DNA from: a bacterium
Lineage (GTDB): Bacteria > Zixibacteria > MSB-5A5 > WJJR01
Reading direction: 5' to 3'
Length of the DNA: 40,046 bases
Assembly (NCBI GenBank): GCA_035559435.1
Contig: DATMBC010000020.1
Coordinates: forward strand, 1-40,046
Of this stretch, positions 9,585-34,913 are shown one piece after another. Under the pieces are notes generated by a model, which saw only the letters and a program-made list of their open reading frames with translations, searched no databases and had not been told where the DNA came from. The position numbers were made by a program, and so were the translations under genes. How positions within the stretch are numbered: the stretch's first letter is position 1; each line of letters begins with the position of its first letter.

Positions 9585-9630
9585 AGAGAAGCCGGCGGAC
9601 GTGTTGCACCGTCACGCCGGCGCATCAGCG

Positions 9631-9870
9631 TCACTTGGGGGACTTGGCGTTGATATAATCGATGGCCGCCTGGACGGTCCCGATCTTCTGCGCTTCCTCG
9701 TCGGGAATCTCCAGCCCGAATTCCTCTTCCAGCGCCATCACCAGCTCCACGGTGTCCAGCGAATCGGCGCCCAGATCGTCGATGAAGGACGCTTTCGGGG
9801 TGACCTGCTCGGCGTTGACGCCAAGCTGCTCGACGATGATCTTCTTTACCCGTTCCTCAACGGACGACAT
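9631..9870 (-). CDS. acpP: Acyl carrier protein
   Basis: A 79-residue acidic four-helix carrier. The phosphopantetheine attachment serine is Ser37 in [20 protein letters not shown], the canonical motif. It carries growing acyl chains for FabD, FabF, FabG, FabH and PlsX, all encoded beside it. Its position between fabG and fabF matches the common fab cluster order. A 107-base gap separates it from fabG; no clear separate promoter was found there. Confidence 0.98.
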
Positions 9871-9977
9871 TCAAGACCCTCCTGCTTATCGATACGTTCA
9901 TTGCCATCCTGTTCACAACCCTTTGAACCATGGGAGTTAACCAAAATTGCGACGCCATCGCAACCACAATATCGGGG

Positions 9978-10739
9978 TCAGGACATCACCATGCCGCCGT
10001 CGATACGCAGGACCTGCCCGGTGATATACGACGCTTCTTCTCCGGCCAGGAAGGCGACCGCCCCGGCGACGTCCTCGGGAGCGCCGAAGCGTCCAAGCGG
10101 AATTCGCGACATGTACTGGGCGGCGATGTTTTCGGGAAGGGCGGCGGTCATCTCGGTGGCGATGAAGCCGGGGGCGATGGCGTTGACGGTGATGTTGCGC
10201 GGTGCCAGCTCGACCGCCAGCGCCTTGGTAAGCCCGATCAATCCGGCCTTCGATGAGATGTAATTCGCCTGGCCGGCGTTGCCCATGACCGCCACGATCG
10301 AACTGATGTTGATGATGCGTCCCCAGCGCGCCTTCATCATCGGACGAGCGCAACGGCGCGCCAGCGCAAAGGCCGACACGAGATTGACCTGCAGGATCGA
10401 GAGGAAATCCTCCTCCGACATGCGCACCGCCAGTCCATCGCGGGTGACGCCGGCGTTGTTGATAAGGATCTCGACCGGTCCGAGCGCGGCTTCGACTTCG
10501 GCCAGGATGCGGTCGGGAGCGTCGGCGGCGCGCAAGTCGGCGGTGACGGTGGCGGCGGCCGCGCCCAGCGCGGCCAGATGACCGGCCTGGCGCTTCAGCG
10601 CCTCCTCGTCGCGTCCGCAAATGGCGATTTTGTGTCCGGCGACGGCCAGACGTCGGGCGATGGCCGCGCCGATTCCCTTGGCGCCGCCGGTGACCAGCGC
10701 GACGCGGGCGACCGGAGTGGATTGCGCGGATGTTGTCAT
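9978..10739 (-). CDS. fabG: 3-oxoacyl-ACP reductase
   Basis: A short-chain dehydrogenase of about 253 residues that reduces 3-oxoacyl-ACP with NADPH. The cofactor motif TGGAKGIGAA, the NNAG motif and the catalytic Ser...Tyr-x3-Lys (NISS, then NYISSKAG) are all present, and GMVMS ends the protein as usual. The ATG at 10739 is preferred; an in-frame GTG two codons upstream (10745) is also possible. It lies between fabD and acpP, in canonical order. Confidence 0.96.
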   Translation of the reverse strand: MTTSAQSTPVARVALVTGGAKGIGAAIARRLAVAGHKIAICGRDEEALKRQAGHLAALGAAAATVTADLRAADAPDRILAEVEAALGPVEILINNAGVTRDGLAVRMSEEDFLSILQVNLVSAFALARRCARPMMKARWGRIINISSIVAVMGNAGQANYISSKAGLIGLTKALAVELAPRNITVNAIAPGFIATEMTAALPENIAAQYMSRIPLGRFGAPEDVAGAVAFLAGEEASYITGQVLRIDGGMVMS

Positions 10740-26392: not shown

Positions 26393-26838
26393 GCTCGCTC
26401 CAACGGCCGAGCGCGCAATGGGAAGTAGACAGCGAAATCGTCATTCGCACTGCGACCACGGCGATTGCCAACATCCTCTGACGTCTCTTCACTGACGTCG
26501 AGGGCATTCGCTGTTCACGTGTTTACGATACGCACTATCCCCCGTGGACTCGCGCCACACCTGCAATAGAATGAATCCGAGACCCATCGTTGATCGGGCT
26601 TCCGGCGACCTGAGGCCGCCAGTCGATTTGAATCGATCGGGCCGCTTCGGCAGCGCCGTCTGATGACACAAATGCGCTGCGGTAGCGGCGCGAGGCACCC
26701 CGTCGATGAGGGTCCTTGATTAAATGGCACGAGAAAGCCTGACTATAATGTTGACAAGTCTCGACCCCAATAATACACTTCCGAAAGCGACAGTCGTCGT
26801 CCAATAGTGGGGGACGAGCGAGAAAAACGAGACAAGCG
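26393..26838. other. 446-base gap before the HTH-EIIA/Ehr operon
   Basis: I see no convincing gene in it; the frames on the minus strand have no recognisable family. Its right end holds the operon promoter (26751-26779) and, in the leader, a small hairpin with TCGTCC pairing to GGACGA (about 26797-26816). An isolated TATAAT at 26744-26749 overlaps the -35 and could be a second start, with TTAAAT 18 bases upstream. Confidence 0.5.
26751..26779 (+). promoter_or_regulatory. Sigma70-type promoter of the HTH-EIIA/Ehr operon
   Basis: A perfect TTGACA (26751-26756), 17 bases, then TACACT (26774-26779). The start near 26786 gives a leader of about 53 bases. This is the only good promoter found ahead of the seven-gene operon, and no terminator was found inside it. 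Confidence 0.72.
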
Positions 26839-27543
26839 ATGACACTCACGGTACGGGATGTCGCCAGACTGCTAAGTGTATCCGAAAAAACGGTTTACCG
26901 GTGGATCAGCAAGGGCGAAGTTCCCGCCTACCAGGTCCACGAGCAGTATCGTTTCAACCGGGCGGAAATTCTCCAGTGGGCGACTTCGAGAAAGATGGCG
27001 GTCTCTCCCGAGATTTTTGCGGAGCCGGAATCGCATGGCATCGCACTGCCCTCGCTGGCGGAGGCGATTGAGAACGGCGGCGTCTACTATCGCGTGGTCG
27101 GCGTGGATCGCTGGGCCGTGCTGAAGAACATCGTCGGATTGCTGCGCCTGCCCGAGGAAGTTGATCGCGACTTCCTGCTTCGTGTCCTCATCGCGCGTGA
27201 GGAACTCTCATCCACCGGCATCGGGGACGGTATTGCCATCCCGCACGTGCGTAACCCGGTGGTTCTCCACGTTGACAAGCCGTTGGTGGCGCTGTTTTTC
27301 CTGGAGCGGCCGGTCGACTTCGGCGCGATTGACGGCCAGCCGGTGTACGCGCTGTTCATGCTGATCAGCCCCACTGTCCGGGCGCACCTCCACCTCATCT
27401 CGCGCCTGGCGTATGCGCTGCGCGATCCGGCCTTTCATGCGGTCATCGAAAAGCAGGGGCTGCGCGAAGAGATCCTCGACGCCGTGCTCGCCGTTGAAGC
27501 GCGACTCAACCCGCCCGGGCCGGCACCGTCGACGGTCGGTTGA
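26839..27543 (+). CDS. HTH/PTS EIIA fusion regulator
   Basis: A 234-residue protein. Residues 1-55 are an excisionase/MerR-like helix-turn-helix (VRDVARLLSVSEKTVYRWIS, QYRFNRAEILQWA). Residues about 75-225 form a PTS EIIA domain of the PtsN/fructose type, with the phospho-accepting histidine at His136 (GIAIPHVRNP), followed by DFGAIDGQPVYALFMLISP and HLHLISRLAYALRDP. EIIA domains receive phosphate from HPr-type carriers, so DNA binding could respond to the phosphotransfer state. It is the first gene after the promoter and ends one base before hyfB begins. That it regulates this operon is an inference from position. No HPr or EI gene is in the window. Confidence 0.87.
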   Translation: MTLTVRDVARLLSVSEKTVYRWISKGEVPAYQVHEQYRFNRAEILQWATSRKMAVSPEIFAEPESHGIALPSLAEAIENGGVYYRVVGVDRWAVLKNIVGLLRLPEEVDRDFLLRVLIAREELSSTGIGDGIAIPHVRNPVVLHVDKPLVALFFLERPVDFGAIDGQPVYALFMLISPTVRAHLHLISRLAYALRDPAFHAVIEKQGLREEILDAVLAVEARLNPPGPAPSTVG

Positions 27544-27544
27544 A

Positions 27545-29521
27545 ATGATGACAGCGCTGATCTCGAGTATAGGTTTGATCCTGCTGGCGGGGGTCCTCGC
27601 GTTGGCGCTGGGACGTTACAGCCGGGCGGCCGCGATCACCGCGGCCACCGGCATTGTCACCGGCGCGGCGCTGGGGCTCATTCCGGTTATCGCCACCCTG
27701 GTGAGTCTGCAATCGGATTCGGTCCGATGGTCATGGACCGTACCGGGCGGCAGTCTCTGGCTGGGGATCGATCCTCTCTCCGCGGTCTTTCTGCTGATCG
27801 TTTTCCTGTTGAGCATTCCCGTCTGTCTATACGGGGTGCCGTATCTCTCACACCATCACGACTACCCCAGGGGTTTTGTGTGGTTCGCGTCGTCGGTGTT
27901 GATCGCCGCGATGGCGGTGGTTGTGACGGCGCGCAACGCGGTGCTGTTCCTGGTGGCCTGGGAAGCGATGTCGGTGAGTTCGTACTTTCTTGTCTCGCTT
28001 GATCACACCCGGCGGTCGGTGCGTCGCGCCGGGATCACCTACCTCGTTGCGGCCCACATCGGCGTCGCCTTCCTGATCGCGTTCTTTCTTCTGCTGGGAC
28101 GTCCGGCGACATCTCTGGATTTCGAGGATCTCCGCAACGCTACCGGGGGGTCGGCGCTGCTTTTCATCCTTGCGCTCGTCGGGTTTGGCTCGAAGGCGGG
28201 GTTGGTGCCGTTTCATGTCTGGCTGCCCGAGGCGCATCCGGTGGCCCCCAGCCACATCTCCGCGCTGATGTCCGGCGTGATGATCAAGATGGGCATTTAC
28301 GGGCTGTTGCGAGCGATGCTGTTGCTCGGACCGCCGTCCTACTGGTGGGGGGTGACGCTGATCGCGGTGGGGATGATCTCCGCCATCGTCGGCATCCTGT
28401 CCGCCTTGTCGCAATCGAACATCAAGCGATTGCTGGCATACTCGAGCGTTGAGAATGTCGGGATCATCACGATCGGACTGGGGATTGGCGCGCTCGGCTG
28501 GGTGACGCGTTCGTATGGCATCGCGATCCTCGGATTGTCCGGCGCCATTCTGCATGTCGTCAATCACGCGATCTTCAAGGGCGCGCTGTTTCTCGCCGCC
28601 GGGTCCATCCTGCAACGCACCGGGACGCTCGAGCTTGATCGCCTGGGCGGGCTCCTCCGACGGATGCGACGCACCGGACTGGTGATCGTGATCGGCTCGG
28701 TGGCGATTGCCGGCCTGCCGCTCGGAAACGGATTTTTGAGCGAGTTTCTGATTTACCTCGGCGCGTTTCGCGGCGCACTGGTTGACCGCACGGATTTCGC
28801 GGCGCTGGCTTTCGCCGTGGTCATCGGTTTGGCGCTCGTCGGAGGATTGGCCATTATCGGATTCGCCAAACTGACCGGCATCGGCCTGCTGGGCCAACCG
28901 CGGACGCCGACGGCCGCGCAGGCGACGGAGTCCTCTCCCCTGATGACTTACCCCATGCTCGCCATGGGGATTCTCTGTCTCGTCATCGGATTAAACGCCC
29001 ACATGATTCCGGGCGTGCTGGTCCCGTTGAGCGGTTCCATTCTCAACATTCCCGCCGCGGAGGTCTCCGCGGCGCGGGCAGCGATTGCGCCGACGATGCG
29101 GACGCTCAGTCTGGGCATCGGGGCGCTGGCCGTCGTGACCATGATGGCGGCCCTGGCGCGATACGCCGTCCTCCGCGGCCGGACAATCCGCGTGGCGGGA
29201 ACCTGGGATTGCGGCTACGCCGCCCCCGGCCCGCGCATGCAGTACAGCGGATTCTCCTTCGTGCAGATGACCGTCGGGCTGTTTCGGCGTCTGGTGCCCC
29301 TGCAGCGGCGCTCAATGCCGCCGGCCGGATTGTTCCCGCGGCAGGGGTCGTTCGGGATTCGACTCCACGACGGTCTGCTTCACGCGTTTTACATCCCGTT
29401 GTTTGGCAGGGCGGACTGGGCGCTCGGGCGGCTGCGGTGGCTTCAGCACGGCAACATTCATTTGTACATTCTTTACATCCTGGTGACCACGATGGTCCTG
29501 TTGTTCTGGGGGCTGCGATGA
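27545..29521 (+). CDS. hyfB: Hyf-like antiporter subunit HyfB
   Basis: A 658-residue, about 14-16-helix membrane protein of the NuoL/Mrp family, the length expected for HyfB (E. coli about 670). The start is the ATG at 27545, one base after the upstream stop; a longer frame exists but overlaps the EIIA gene. Conserved proton-path signatures are visible: LVAWEAMSVSSYFLVSLDH with its glutamate, and FHVWLPEAHPVAPSHISALM followed by MSGVMIKMGIYG with its lysine. It would be a membrane ion-translocating arm of the complex. It overlaps hyfC by four bases. Confidence 0.93.
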   Translation: MMTALISSIGLILLAGVLALALGRYSRAAAITAATGIVTGAALGLIPVIATLVSLQSDSVRWSWTVPGGSLWLGIDPLSAVFLLIVFLLSIPVCLYGVPYLSHHHDYPRGFVWFASSVLIAAMAVVVTARNAVLFLVAWEAMSVSSYFLVSLDHTRRSVRRAGITYLVAAHIGVAFLIAFFLLLGRPATSLDFEDLRNATGGSALLFILALVGFGSKAGLVPFHVWLPEAHPVAPSHISALMSGVMIKMGIYGLLRAMLLLGPPSYWWGVTLIAVGMISAIVGILSALSQSNIKRLLAYSSVENVGIITIGLGIGALGWVTRSYGIAILGLSGAILHVVNHAIFKGALFLAAGSILQRTGTLELDRLGGLLRRMRRTGLVIVIGSVAIAGLPLGNGFLSEFLIYLGAFRGALVDRTDFAALAFAVVIGLALVGGLAIIGFAKLTGIGLLGQPRTPTAAQATESSPLMTYPMLAMGILCLVIGLNAHMIPGVLVPLSGSILNIPAAEVSAARAAIAPTMRTLSLGIGALAVVTMMAALARYAVLRGRTIRVAGTWDCGYAAPGPRMQYSGFSFVQMTVGLFRRLVPLQRRSMPPAGLFPRQGSFGIRLHDGLLHAFYIPLFGRADWALGRLRWLQHGNIHLYILYILVTTMVLLFWGLR

Positions 29522-30432
29522 GCGCAACCCTCCTGGCCATCGGCCACATTGTCCTGGCGCTGGTCGGCGCCCCATTGCTTCTGGGAATCATCAATCGCAC
29601 CAAAGCGGTCTTCGCCGGACGGCGCGGCCAGCCGGTCCTGCAGCCGTACTTTGACATTCTCAAACTCATGCGCAAAGGCGCCGTGTACAGCAGCACAACC
29701 ACCTGGATATTTCGCGCCGGGCCGGCCGTGACGCTGGCGGCCGTGTTGACCGGCCTCTGCATCGTCCCGTTCGCCGGCGCCAAGCCATTGTTGGCCTTTC
29801 AAGGCGATCTGATCCTGATCGCGTATCTGCTGGCGCTGTCGCGCCTGATGACGGTTCTGGCGGCGATCGACACGGGATCGAGCTTCGAGGGCATGGGGGC
29901 CAGCCGCGAGCTCACGTTTTCCATGCTCGCCGAACCGGCCCTCTTTGTCGGCCTGCTCGCGCTGGCGCGCGTCACGCACAGTCTCTCGCTCGATGGAATC
30001 CTTTACAAGACCGGAGTGACCGGTTGGAGCATCGGCGCGCCAGCGCTGGTCGCCGCCGCATTGTTCGTGGTGTTCCTCACGGAGAACGCGCGCCTGCCCA
30101 TCGACGATCCCGACACGCACCTTGAATTGACGATGATTCACGAAGTCATGGTCCTGGACCATGGGGGACCCGACCTCGGGCTGGTGCAGTGCGGCAGCGC
30201 GCTCAAACTCTGGCTGTTGGGCATTCTGATCGTGGGCGTGGCGTCGCCGAATCTTGCGGACGCAAGTCTCTGGCTGCGGGAAGGCTTCGCGGTGGCCGGT
30301 CTGGCGGCTCTGGCCGTCCTGGTGGGCATCGTGGAGTCGTTCATGGCGCGCATGCGGCTGATGAAGGTGCCGCAACTGCTGATCGGCGCCGGCGCGCTGT
30401 CGGTGCTCGCGGCGATTCTGGTCCTGGGGTGA
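29518..30432 (+). CDS. hyfC: Hyf-like membrane subunit HyfC (NuoH-like)
   Basis: A 304-residue membrane protein homologous to NuoH and HycD, the subunit that joins the catalytic arm to the membrane pump. The ATG at 29518 overlaps the hyfB stop. Signatures are QPYFDILKLMRKG, GSSFEGMGASREL and the acidic loop DDPDTHLELTMIHEVMVLDH, with eight or so hydrophobic helices. Length is normal for HyfC (about 315). Confidence 0.93.
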   Translation: MSATLLAIGHIVLALVGAPLLLGIINRTKAVFAGRRGQPVLQPYFDILKLMRKGAVYSSTTTWIFRAGPAVTLAAVLTGLCIVPFAGAKPLLAFQGDLILIAYLLALSRLMTVLAAIDTGSSFEGMGASRELTFSMLAEPALFVGLLALARVTHSLSLDGILYKTGVTGWSIGAPALVAAALFVVFLTENARLPIDDPDTHLELTMIHEVMVLDHGGPDLGLVQCGSALKLWLLGILIVGVASPNLADASLWLREGFAVAGLAALAVLVGIVESFMARMRLMKVPQLLIGAGALSVLAAILVLG

Positions 30433-30436
30433 GCGT

Positions 30437-31129
30437 ATGAATGACCTGATCAGCATCCTGGTGGTGGTCATCATCATGAGCGATTTCCTGCTGCTGGCGG
30501 CCGGATCGTTGCGTGCCGCCGTGCGCATCATCGGCTTTCAGGGGCTGGCGCTCGGGGTGTTGCCACTGTGCGCGCATCAGAACGGGTTGACGCTGCGTCT
30601 GGTGGCCATCGCGATCCTGGTGATCATTCTGAAAGCCGTGGTCTTCCCGCGTCTGCTCCTCCGGAGTCTGCGTGAGTCGGGCGCGCCCAGGACCATCACG
30701 TTCTTTGTCGGCCCGGTCTCCTCGCTCCTGCTGGGAATCTTTGTCCTGGGCAGTTCGCTTTGGTGGGGGTATCTCCTGCCGCTTCCCGAGCGGTCGCCGT
30801 ACACGCTGGCCGTTCCGATGGTCTTTTTCACGATCGTCACCGGACTCCTGCTGCTGGTGAGCCGAAGGCAGGCGCTGATGCAAGTCATCGGGTATCTGGC
30901 GCTGGAAAACGGGATCTACGCGTTCGGCGTCTTCTTCGCGCAATCCGAGTCGATGCTGATTGAGCTGGGGATCCTGCTGGATGTGTTTGTGGGCGTGTTC
31001 ATCATGGGGATCATGGTGTTCCATATCAGCCGCGAATTCGACAACATCGAATCGAGCCAGCTGAGCACGCTGCGCGACTGGTTTCGCGGCAGTCGCCGCC
31101 CGGCGGGTGGAGGCGGGACGTTGCGATGA
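30437..31129 (+). CDS. hyfE: Hyf-like membrane subunit HyfE (NuoK-like)
   Basis: A 230-residue, six- or seven-helix protein with HyfE motifs: GFQGLALGVLPL, KAVVFPRLLLRSL, GYLALENGIYAFG and LDVFVGVFIMGIMVFHISREFD. It is a membrane component of the ion path. It begins four bases after hyfC and overlaps hyfF by four. Confidence 0.9.
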   Translation: MNDLISILVVVIIMSDFLLLAAGSLRAAVRIIGFQGLALGVLPLCAHQNGLTLRLVAIAILVIILKAVVFPRLLLRSLRESGAPRTITFFVGPVSSLLLGIFVLGSSLWWGYLLPLPERSPYTLAVPMVFFTIVTGLLLLVSRRQALMQVIGYLALENGIYAFGVFFAQSESMLIELGILLDVFVGVFIMGIMVFHISREFDNIESSQLSTLRDWFRGSRRPAGGGGTLR

Positions 31130-32601
31130 TTCTGCTGGTGGTGATCGTGCCCGTTCTGGCCAGCCTGGCGGCGATGGCAGTGCGCCACACCCGTGCGCGC
31201 CGGGCGCTGTTGATTCTGGTGGCCACGGCGCACGCCGCGCTCACCGCCGGCGCCTGGGTCGTCCGCCCGGAGCCGGCGCTGGGCGGGTGGATGCAATTGG
31301 ACGCCCTGGGACTGATCTTCCTTTCCATTATCAGTGCGTTGTTCCTTGCGGCGGCGGTTTACGCCGCGGCCTACCTCGCTCGCGAGCAGGTCGGCACGCG
31401 TCAAGACTTCGAGGAGTCGTTCCTGTTTGTCAATGAGCCGGAGGCGGTGTTTGTCGGCTGCCTGCTTCTGTTTCTCGGCACGATGTCGCTGGTCACCGTG
31501 AGCCATAACTTTGGAATGCTGTGGGTGGCCATCGAGGCCACGACGCTCAGCAGCGCGCCGCTCATCTATTTTCACCGTCACCACCGCTCGCTGGAAGCGA
31601 CCTGGAAATACCTGTTGATCTGCTCGGTGGGCATTGCGCTCGCGCTGCTGGGGACGTTTTTCCTGGCTTCCGCCGCCAGCGCCTCCCCGGAGCGCGGCAT
31701 CCCGCTGGTGCTGGGCGAATTGCTGGCCCATTCCGGCGCGCTCGACCTCCCCTGGTTGAAAGTCGCGTTTCTGTTCATGCTGGTGGGGTACGGCACCAAG
31801 ATGGGATTGGCACCCCTGCACAGCTGGCTGCCCGATGCGCACAGCGAGGCGCCGTCGGTGGTGTCGGCCCTGCTCTCCGGCGCGCTGCTCAATTGCGCTT
31901 TCCTGGGGATCCTGCGTATCGGCCAGGTGCTGAATGCCGCCGGCGCCGCCGAGTTCGGCCAGGGACTGCTGCTGGTCTTTGGCGTGATCTCCGTCGTTTT
32001 CGCCACGGTGTTCATCGTTTCCCAGTTGGACTTCAAGCGCATGCTCGCCTATTCAAGCATCGAGCACATGGGCATCATGGCCATCGGCGTGGGCGTCGGC
32101 GGGCTGGGCACATTCGGCTCGCTGTTGCATGCGGTTAATCACTCCCTGACGAAGGCGATGCTGTTTCTGGTCGCCGGCAATATTCTGGCGCGTTATCGAA
32201 CGAAATCGACCAAACTTGTCAACGGGGTCCTCGCCGAGCTGCCGGGCTCGGGGGTCCTGTGGATGGCGGGCCTGCTGGCGATCACCGGCACGCCACCGTT
32301 TGGCCTGTTCCAGAGCGAATTGACAATCCTTCGTGCCGCGTTTGGGTCGGGTCGGTACGTCGTGGCGGTCCTGCTGCTGCTTGCCCTTGTTGCCATCTTC
32401 GTGGCGATGGCGGCGATTATGACACGGATGCTCTACGGCCAGGCGCGCGAAGGGTCGGCACCGTCTCCCGGCGAGGCGGCGGCCGCGGTCGTGCCGCCGG
32501 CCGTGCTGTGTATGGCCGTGCTGATACTGGGCCTCTACCTCCCCCCCGCGCTGAACGGACTGCTGAGGGAAGCGGCCAATCTGCTGGATGTGCGTCTATG
32601 A
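31126..32601 (+). CDS. hyfF: Hyf-like antiporter subunit HyfF (NuoN/L-like)
   Basis: A 491-residue polytopic protein of the antiporter family. LWVAIEATTLSSAPLIYFH, LHSWLPDAHSEAPSVVSALL and LLNCAFLGILR are the HyfF signatures, and LKAYSSIEHM-like text is present as RMLAYSSIEHMGIMAIG. It overlaps hyfG by four bases (ATGA). There is no additional HyfD-type gene, so the complex has two antiporter-like subunits rather than the three of E. coli Hyf. Confidence 0.92.
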   Translation: MILLVVIVPVLASLAAMAVRHTRARRALLILVATAHAALTAGAWVVRPEPALGGWMQLDALGLIFLSIISALFLAAAVYAAAYLAREQVGTRQDFEESFLFVNEPEAVFVGCLLLFLGTMSLVTVSHNFGMLWVAIEATTLSSAPLIYFHRHHRSLEATWKYLLICSVGIALALLGTFFLASAASASPERGIPLVLGELLAHSGALDLPWLKVAFLFMLVGYGTKMGLAPLHSWLPDAHSEAPSVVSALLSGALLNCAFLGILRIGQVLNAAGAAEFGQGLLLVFGVISVVFATVFIVSQLDFKRMLAYSSIEHMGIMAIGVGVGGLGTFGSLLHAVNHSLTKAMLFLVAGNILARYRTKSTKLVNGVLAELPGSGVLWMAGLLAITGTPPFGLFQSELTILRAAFGSGRYVVAVLLLLALVAIFVAMAAIMTRMLYGQAREGSAPSPGEAAAAVVPPAVLCMAVLILGLYLPPALNGLLREAANLLDVRL

Positions 32602-34070
32602 GCGCGTCGGATTTCCATGTCTGTCAACCCGGGACCGTTATCGATCGGCGCGACATCGCGCCCGTCGTATTCGACGTGTTCGCTGAGACGATCACCAGCG
32701 GGGTCCGCGATGGCGATCGGTTGCTGGCGCTTGTCGCGCAACCGTCGGGAACCGGCCACCGGCTCTATGGCGTGCTGACGCTGCGCGATCAGGGCGCGTT
32801 GGGAGTCATCGCGACGGACGTGGCCGACTCGTTTCCTTCGCTGACTCGACAGTGTGCGTCGGCGCACCTGTTTGAACGCGAGATCGCCGAGACCTCGGGG
32901 CTTCGACCCGACGGACATCCATGGCTCAAACCCGTTCGTTTCCTGCGTTCGCCGGTCGGCGTCACAGAGTTCTTTGCGATGTCCGGGGCCGATGTGCATG
33001 AGGTCGCGGTCGGACCGGTGCACGCGGGCGTGATCGAGCCGGGTCACTTTCGCTTTGCCTGCGTGGGTGAGACGGTGCTCCATCTGGAGATTGCCCTGGG
33101 TTACCAGCATCGGGGCATCGAGCCGGCGCTGGTCGGCGGCCCGGGGCTCCGGACGATCCACTACATGGAGACGCTGGCCGGCGACACATCGGTGGGCCAT
33201 GCCACGGCCTATTGCCAGAATCTCGAAACCCTGGCGCACCGCCCGGCGCCGCCGCGCGGCATGATGCTGCGCAGCGTTGCGCTCGAACTGGAGCGCCTGG
33301 CCAATCATGTGGGTGATCTGGGCGCGCTCGCCGGTGATGTCGGCTTTCTCCCGGTGGCATCGCATTGCGGACGAATTCGCGGCGAATTCCTGAACCTGAC
33401 GTCGCTGATTTGCGGCAACCGCCTCGGGCGCGGCATCGCGCGGCCTGGCGGCGTCGGCTTCGATCTGGATGACGGCCAGATTGAAACACTCTTGCGCAAC
33501 CTGAAGCGCGCCTCCGAGGAGGCGAGGGACGCGCTTCAACTGCTCTGGGATTCGCCGTCGGCGATGGACCGCTTCGAAACCACCGGCTCACTGACCGCGC
33601 CGCTTTGTCGCGAACTGGGAATCGTCGGACCGCCGGCGCGCGCGGCGGGGCTGGAACGGGACGCGCGTCTGGAATTCCCCTCCGACCTGTTCCGCTTCGC
33701 GCAGATTCCCGTGTCGCTTTGGCAGTCCGGCGACGTGTTCGCGCGTGCCTACGTGCGCTGGTTGGAGATTATTCGTTCCAGTGAGTTCATAGCCGCCCAG
33801 CTGGCGGCGGCTCCGCCGGGCCCCTGCCGGGCGCCGGTCGGTCAACTGGCGCCCAATGCGTTGACGGTTTCCCTCGTCGAAGGCTGGCGCGGCGAAATCT
33901 GTCACGTGGCGTGCACGGACGACGATGGACGATTTGCCTGGTACAAGGTCGTTGATCCGTCGTTCCACAATTGGCAGGGCCTGGCCATGGCCATGCGCAA
34001 CCAGCCGATATCGGATTTCCCGCTCTGTAACAAGAGTTTCAACCTGTCGTATTGCGGCCATGACCTGTAG
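32598..34070 (+). CDS. hyfG: Ehr/HyfG-like large subunit without nickel ligands
   Basis: A 490-residue NuoC-NuoD fusion, like E. coli HyfG. The N-terminal 120 residues are the 30-kDa (NuoC) domain; residues about 125-490 the large subunit. In [NiFe] hydrogenases two CxxC pairs hold nickel. Here the first site is ETLAGDTSVGH, with Ala194 and Thr197 in place of the two Cys, and the last is VDPSFHNW, with Ser455 and Asn458. All four ligands are absent, so no [NiFe] centre can form. LELERLANHVGDLG and the tail CNKSFNLSYCGHDL are family-typical. This identifies the Ehr (energy-converting hydrogenase-related) group. What the site binds is unknown. Confidence 0.92.
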   Translation: MSASDFHVCQPGTVIDRRDIAPVVFDVFAETITSGVRDGDRLLALVAQPSGTGHRLYGVLTLRDQGALGVIATDVADSFPSLTRQCASAHLFEREIAETSGLRPDGHPWLKPVRFLRSPVGVTEFFAMSGADVHEVAVGPVHAGVIEPGHFRFACVGETVLHLEIALGYQHRGIEPALVGGPGLRTIHYMETLAGDTSVGHATAYCQNLETLAHRPAPPRGMMLRSVALELERLANHVGDLGALAGDVGFLPVASHCGRIRGEFLNLTSLICGNRLGRGIARPGGVGFDLDDGQIETLLRNLKRASEEARDALQLLWDSPSAMDRFETTGSLTAPLCRELGIVGPPARAAGLERDARLEFPSDLFRFAQIPVSLWQSGDVFARAYVRWLEIIRSSEFIAAQLAAAPPGPCRAPVGQLAPNALTVSLVEGWRGEICHVACTDDDGRFAWYKVVDPSFHNWQGLAMAMRNQPISDFPLCNKSFNLSYCGHDL

Positions 34071-34133
34071 CAGCGACCGCCGGCCACTTCCATTCCGATG
34101 CCCTCCGGCGTGCGGTCCCGGGGACACCTGCCC

Positions 34134-34913
34134 ATGCTGAAGACTCTGCTCACTCGTATGAGATTCGGAAATCGCACGATCGCGTTTCCCGCGGAAGCGC
34201 CGTCCTTGCCCGATCGTTATCTCGGGCGCCCGGTCATCGGTCCGCAGCCGTGCGCGGCCGGCTGCCGCGAGTGTGTCGACGTCTGCCCGACGACGGCGAT
34301 CTCCGTTGCGGACCTTCATCCGGCGCTGGATCTGGGGCGGTGCATCTTCTGCGCGGACTGCCTCCGCGCCTGTCCGGAGGGCACGATTCGGTTCTCCCGC
34401 GACCCGGCGATGTCAGCGTCGGCGCGCGGCGATCTGGTCGTCGGGCATAAAGCCGAAGCGGCCATGGTCAGACGCCTCAATCACGAGATGCTGCGATTGT
34501 TCAAACGATCGTTGCGGCTGCGGCAGGTCAGCGCCGGCGGGTGCAACGGCTGCGAAGTTGAGGTGAACGTTCTCGCCACCATCGTCTATGACATTGGCCG
34601 ATTCGGCATTCAATATGTGGCGTCGCCAAGGCACGCCGATGGTCTGCTGATCACCGGCCCGGTGACGGAGAACATGAAGCTGGCGTTGCAGAAAACGTAC
34701 GATGCGGTTCCCGACCCCAAAATCGTGATTGCCGTCGGGGCTTGCGCCATCGCCGGCGGCCCCTTTATCGACCATCCGCAGGTCCATAACGGCGCGGCCG
34801 GCGTCGTTCCGGTCGATCTCTACATTCCTGGTTGTCCGCCGCATCCGATTACGATCCTTGACGGCTTGCTGCGGCTGCTGGGAAGGATGCCGGCACGGAC
34901 ACCGGGTGTCTGA
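34134..34913 (+). CDS. Fused HyfH ferredoxin + HyfI small subunit
   Basis: A 259-residue fusion. Residues 35-85 hold two [4Fe-4S] motifs: Cys40/44/47/51 (the first spacing is CxxxC rather than CxxC) and Cys70/73/76/80. Residues about 125-255 are the NuoB/HyfI small subunit, with cluster ligands Cys137 and Cys140 (GGCNGCEVE), GACAIAGG and PGCPPHP all intact. In E. coli these are two genes, hyfH and hyfI. The ATG at 34134 has GGGGA about 10 bases upstream; an in-frame ATG at 34098 is less likely. Electrons would pass through the ferredoxin domain to the site in the large subunit. It ends the operon. Confidence 0.9.
   Translation: MLKTLLTRMRFGNRTIAFPAEAPSLPDRYLGRPVIGPQPCAAGCRECVDVCPTTAISVADLHPALDLGRCIFCADCLRACPEGTIRFSRDPAMSASARGDLVVGHKAEAAMVRRLNHEMLRLFKRSLRLRQVSAGGCNGCEVEVNVLATIVYDIGRFGIQYVASPRHADGLLITGPVTENMKLALQKTYDAVPDPKIVIAVGACAIAGGPFIDHPQVHNGAAGVVPVDLYIPGCPPHPITILDGLLRLLGRMPARTPGV

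Follow-up and report, generated by a model that had tools for sequence, protein, structure and literature searches.

An HTH_17-EIIA fusion gene recurs beside nickel-less Ehr operons in about 20 phyla and is a candidate phosphotransfer-controlled regulator

Introduction

Why should an operon for a membrane energy-converting complex begin with a gene that joins a DNA-binding domain to an EIIA domain of the phosphotransferase system (PTS)? We met this arrangement in a 40,046-nucleotide stretch of DNA (the window), which is contig C20 of a 3.0-Mb Candidatus Zixiibacteriota genome. The genes that follow encode one of the complexes called energy-converting hydrogenase-related, or Ehr (Marreiros 2013, as cited in PMC6349859). 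A first-pass annotation, made from the letters of the window, had proposed that phosphotransfer state, as a measure of carbon or nitrogen status, controls the complex, and that the linkage of the two may define a conserved module. Ehr complexes, of which Mbx is a relative, are widespread, and we know of no substrate or physiological trigger for them.

Results

The fusion gene heads an Ehr operon

The features of the locus are as follows.

26751..26779, plus strand: predicted sigma-70-like promoter TTGACA-N17-TACACT, 5' of the operon (consensus scan)
26839..27543, plus strand: gene for the HTH_17-EIIA fusion, a putative regulator of 234 aa (ORF translation, Pfam; conserved in 80 loci)
26845..26991, plus strand: HTH_17 DNA-binding domain, residues 3-51 (Pfam, E = 8.6e-16)
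27115..27483, plus strand: PTS_EIIA_2 domain, residues 93-215 (Pfam, E = 1.9e-23; PDB PtsN chains, E = 1e-13)
27196..27198, plus strand: codon of Arg120, the active-site Arg of EIIA-Ntr by alignment spacing (invariant)
27244..27246, plus strand: codon of His136, the predicted phosphorylation site (invariant)
27385..27387, plus strand: codon of His183, the second active-site His, 47 residues C-terminal to His136, which is the EIIA-Ntr spacing (invariant)
27545..29521, plus strand: HyfB-like antiporter/NuoL-M-N-type subunit (Proton_antipo_M, hydrogenase 4 subunit B)
29518..30432, plus strand: HyfC/NuoH-like membrane anchor, its start overlapping the hyfB stop (NADHdh)
30437..31129, plus strand: HyfE-like membrane subunit (hydrogenase 4 membrane subunit)
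31126..32601, plus strand: HyfF-like antiporter-type subunit (profile matches)
32598..34070, plus strand: HyfG-like (NuoC+D) large subunit that lacks the nickel cysteines (profile matches, motif check)
34134..34913, plus strand: fused ferredoxin (2 x 4Fe-4S) and HyfI/NuoB-like subunit (Pfam)

As had been claimed, the fusion is the first gene after a putative promoter and ends one base before hyfB: its TGA occupies 27541-27543, and the hyfB ATG begins at 27545. The promoter candidate is 59 bases from the fusion start codon, and the scanned region held 2 sigma-70-like sites compared with 0.2 expected from shuffles. Several stop and start codons overlap in the genes downstream. For the ferredoxin-HyfI gene an alternative upstream ATG at 34098 is possible; its homologues begin at residue 13.

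The subunit set (HyfB, C, E, F, G and HI) is of the group-4 hydrogenase/complex I type with antiporter-like subunits. Both CxxC nickel motifs are missing from HyfG and its relatives (58-60 sequences), in which the N-terminal site reads GDT[ST][IV]GH and the C-terminal site DFPLCNKSFNLSYCGHDL. The label of nickel-less, Ehr-type cluster given in the first-pass annotation is therefore right, and a true [NiFe] hydrogenase is ruled out. The complex is a nickel-free and probably ion-pumping membrane complex. The C-terminal DFPLCNKSFNLSYCGHDL (window positions 34017-34070) hardly varies among the large subunits of this clade's Ehr complexes and includes two conserved cysteines. Many Ehr clusters have two hyfB-like antiporter genes, mostly in tandem (L047, L049, L065, L068, L087, L088, L090, L096-L098, L102 and L116).

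The EIIA domain has an intact and invariant active site

Profile searches agree with the earlier description of the protein as a fusion of a helix-turn-helix (HTH) domain and a PTS EIIA domain with an intact His136, which lies within a GDGIAIPH motif. The PTS EIIA family of the fructose/mannitol/Ntr class (PF00359) scores 83.5 bits against a cut-off of 27, HTH_17 (PF12728) scores 58.4 bits against 27, and the excisionase-type HTH (TIGR01764) scores 52.1 bits against 28.8. HTH_17 and PTS_EIIA_2 are the only domains found; PRD and EIIB domains are absent, which rules out a PRD-type regulator. The protein is not a PtsN equivalog either, scoring 58.5 bits with TIGR01419 where the equivalog cut-off is 138.7. 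The best solved relatives of its EIIA domain are nevertheless PtsN chains, with which the columns of the Arg and the first His match, and we take the spacing of Arg120, His136 and His183 to be that of R57, H73 and H120 in Escherichia coli PtsN.

In an alignment of 45 sequences, R120, H136, H183 and the HTH tryptophan W22 are all invariant. Our scan of the collection for relatives used GDGIAIPH-type seeds, but among 20 relatives outside the seed pattern the His is present in 19 and the remaining sequence is masked at this point, so the choice of seed does not account for the conserved histidine. Every locus retains the HTH domain, in which E46-W47-A48 is nearly invariant.

Fusion genes and Ehr operons occur together

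We measured the linkage in three sets of genomes or loci. The full-length fusion is present in 7 of 132 genomes of the phylum, and the Ehr form of HyfG (E below 1e-60) is present in the same 7. In six of these carriers a single contig shows the fusion and HyfB side by side. The seventh (G130) has an intact fusion at the end of a contig and a second contig that opens with the C-terminal half followed by HyfB, so that, counting this genome across its two contigs, the fusion adjoins Ehr in all seven. The second set comprised 195 genomes of Desulfuromonadia, the class of Geobacter sp. AOG1: 122 have the fusion and 134 have Ehr, with 113 having both, 9 only the fusion, 21 only Ehr and 52 neither (Fisher P = 5e-21, a value that ignores kinship between genomes). 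Within this class, 100 of 125 fusion genes are less than 20 kb from HyfG, and for most of the others HyfG is on a different contig or has no match above threshold. Ehr can evidently do without the fusion, since 21 of the 134 Ehr carriers have none.

The third set consisted of 80 loci from a species-level collection, picked by similarity to Ehr-linked proteins; because of this choice, the phylum and Desulfuromonadia sets carry more weight. HyfB lies directly 3' of the fusion on the same strand at 73 of the 80 loci. The exceptions are three loci that stop at a contig edge (L075, L104 and L110), one with a divergent Ehr operon (L115), one with Ehr elsewhere in the genome (L103) and two without Ehr (L058 and L122). 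The loci carry 20 phylum labels, and their tree mixes phyla (40 changes, where the least possible is 19), which suggests transfer. Distances between HTH-EIIA proteins correlate with those between the corresponding HyfG proteins (r = 0.46 over 53 loci; matched in 0 of 2000 permutations).

The linkage is thus far beyond chance. It could still be argued that a widespread HTH-EIIA family merely happens to lie beside Ehr in the window, and HTH_17-EIIA fusions away from Ehr or of another subfamily do exist (L096:3999-4691, L122:10001-10672 and, on the minus strand, L126:8162-9328); the architecture looks like a broad and little-described class of regulator, wider than Ehr. But the 7 genomes of 132 that carry the fusion are also the 7 that carry Ehr, 113 of 122 fusion carriers in the second group have Ehr, and 73 of the 80 loci, spread over about 20 phyla, show the adjacency. 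An accidental neighbour is so improbable on these figures that we reject it in practice. The search of other genomes that the first-pass annotation had suggested therefore finds the linkage again, and its proposal of a conserved module holds.

Beyond the Ehr genes themselves, the flanks of the 80 loci contain no recurring partner gene such as formate dehydrogenase or maturation factors. Other recurrent flank clusters are mostly out-of-frame ORFs, except for a PemK-like gene (9 loci) and, about 7.7 kb off, an ABC-type ATPase-like ORF (5 loci). Viral contigs yielded no relative. At some Ehr loci the fusion gene is doubled or tripled (L054, L066, L099, L105 and L076): the HTH-EIIA genes are paired, in tandem or divergently, at the first four and in genomes G160 and G244, and at L076 a weakly scoring HTH-EIIA-like gene stands between two copies of hyfB. 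In Geobacter-type loci (L107, L108, L112, L113, L115 and L120, at about 9600-10000) a PemK/MazF-like toxin gene and an antitoxin-like gene lie directly 5' of HTH-EIIA, and the three genes are divergent from Ehr, with a conserved AT-rich block between. A palindrome between these divergent operons was set aside, because it could belong to the neighbouring toxin-antitoxin pair.

Most carriers have EI and HPr, and almost none a PF02378 permease

In the window genome the genes for HPr (with the motif GVHARP) and a 590-residue EI are side by side, and there are three more EIIA_2 proteins (PtsN-like, one alone, one CBS-fused). A search for PTS_EIIC (PF02378) found none in this genome. The CBS fusion (L044:6167-7075, contig C50) joins EIIA_2 to two CBS domains, a further EIIA output in a permease-less genome.

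Among 41 carriers of the fusion, 39 have both EI and HPr; the remaining two (G344 and G365) match neither, and may be incomplete bins. PTS_EIIC exceeds its cut-off in 1 of the 41, in a search confined to the PF02378 class of permease. Since EI and HPr are common and this permease is nearly absent, the relay in these genomes is probably regulatory. Its likeliest input would be the supply of phosphoenolpyruvate (PEP) or a signal acting on EI; the near absence of this permease argues against direct sensing of sugar uptake. Between the carbon and nitrogen status named in the first-pass annotation, sequence alone cannot choose.

That two carriers have neither an EI nor an HPr match speaks for another reading, in which the EIIA fold senses a ligand or redox state, or mediates dimerisation, and phosphotransfer goes unused. 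Such a role would not explain an invariant Arg/His/His active site in genomes of which 39 of 41 have both upstream proteins, and we regard it as distinctly unlikely.

A conserved repeat overlaps the promoter in Geomonas-type genomes

We compared the 150 bases 5' of the fusion in 14 Geomonas-type genomes. A block of ~45 bases just before the gene has 71-94% identity, compared with 27-35% in flanking sequence. It reads ATTAACGGCG-TTGCAT-CTTCATC-TTAACGGTG-C-TATACC and contains a -35/-10 pair with 17-base spacing. A direct repeat of TTAACG, its copies 22 bases apart, has one copy before the -35 element and the other within the spacer. In the 4 genomes searched whole the block occurs once per genome, always at the fusion promoter, and the control gave 0. 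Zixibacterial promoters, including that of the window, have no clear copy of the TTAACG repeat.

These features are compatible with sequence-specific DNA binding by HTH_17. Two helical turns between the half-sites would suit a dimer on one face of the DNA, and a copy within the spacer would suit repression or a MerR-like distortion; repression appears the likelier sign of control at promoters whose -35/-10 spacer is overlapped by the repeat.

Discussion

We favour, with somewhat better than even confidence, the reading that the fusion is a one-component transcription factor under phosphotransfer control, setting the expression of its own Ehr operon. The N-terminal HTH_17 domain would bind an operator at the fusion's own promoter, and HPr~P would phosphorylate the C-terminal EIIA domain on His136. 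With EI and HPr present and (almost) no sugar permease, the protein would report the state of PEP and the phosphorelay. Phosphorylation of His136 would alter DNA binding, most likely through the placement of two protomers on the tandem operator, and the change in binding would set the level of transcription of the co-transcribed Ehr genes. We infer phosphorylation, DNA binding, autoregulation, sign and signal from sequence. Phosphotransfer state as a control on Ehr expression is the best-supported reading, if indirectly so, because the Arg/His/His site is invariant, EI and HPr are nearly always present, and the Geomonas-type promoter has its conserved repeat. Weighing against this reading are the two carriers that match neither EI nor HPr, the 21 Ehr carriers among Desulfuromonadia that lack the fusion, a window promoter with no clear copy of the repeat, and several Geobacter loci in which the fusion follows a toxin-antitoxin-like pair and is divergent from Ehr.

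Control might instead be post-translational: the EIIA domain would contact an Ehr subunit or a partner depending on phosphorylation, as EIIA-Ntr does with KdpD, and the HTH would be secondary, serving autoregulation only. There is precedent in that EIIA-Ntr steers ion transport by binding a partner protein, KdpD being bound by PtsN1 in its unphosphorylated form (PMC9239096), and the fusion is co-encoded with a membrane subunit whose gene begins one base further on. However, the HTH domain, with its invariant W22, has been kept at every locus, and the fusion that lies away from its Ehr genes (L103) fits a DNA binder acting in trans at least equally well. We consider direct contact rather unlikely as the main mode of action.

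Transcriptional control by the fusion could form part of a longer signalling route, conserved in about 20 phyla: a PTS that lacks sugar permeases would phosphorylate a minimal HTH-EIIA factor, which would set the expression of a nickel-free energy-converting complex and so tie PEP or energy state directly to ion pumping. The chances that this whole route is correct seem to us evenly balanced. A dedicated, phosphotransfer-domain regulator that accompanies Ehr in many phyla offers a way to find out when cells need the complex. If the favoured reading is true, the fusion represents a minimal, PRD-free class of PTS-controlled transcription factor and gives a role to the PTS that many bacteria have without permeases and for which few outputs are known. 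The regulator is amenable to testing in cultured Geobacter and Geomonas.

Comparison with known systems

We found no published description of the fusion or of its linkage to Ehr in a literature search whose scope excluded key subscription papers. The operon resembles those of Ehr complexes in its group-4 hydrogenase/complex I subunit set, its antiporter-like subunits and its lack of Ni ligands; the passages of PMC6349859 on Ehr mention no EIIA regulator, whereas the window's operon is headed by one. EIIA-Ntr, or PtsN (PDB 3urr, 4gqx, 1a6j and 2a0j), shares with the fusion the EIIA_2 fold, the same Arg-His-His spacing and a relay without a sugar permease, and it controls ion transport by way of KdpD (PMC9239096). 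Unlike the fusion, with its HTH_17, PtsN lacks a DNA-binding domain and works through contact with other proteins. The PRD regulators MtlR, LicR and CelR also combine an HTH with an EIIA-mtl-type domain in one transcription factor, the phosphorylatable EIIA His of CelR being H577 (PMC3478281). They regulate sugar operons, contain two PRDs plus an EIIB domain, and have an HTH of another kind, whereas the fusion consists only of HTH_17 and EIIA and belongs to the operon of an energy complex.
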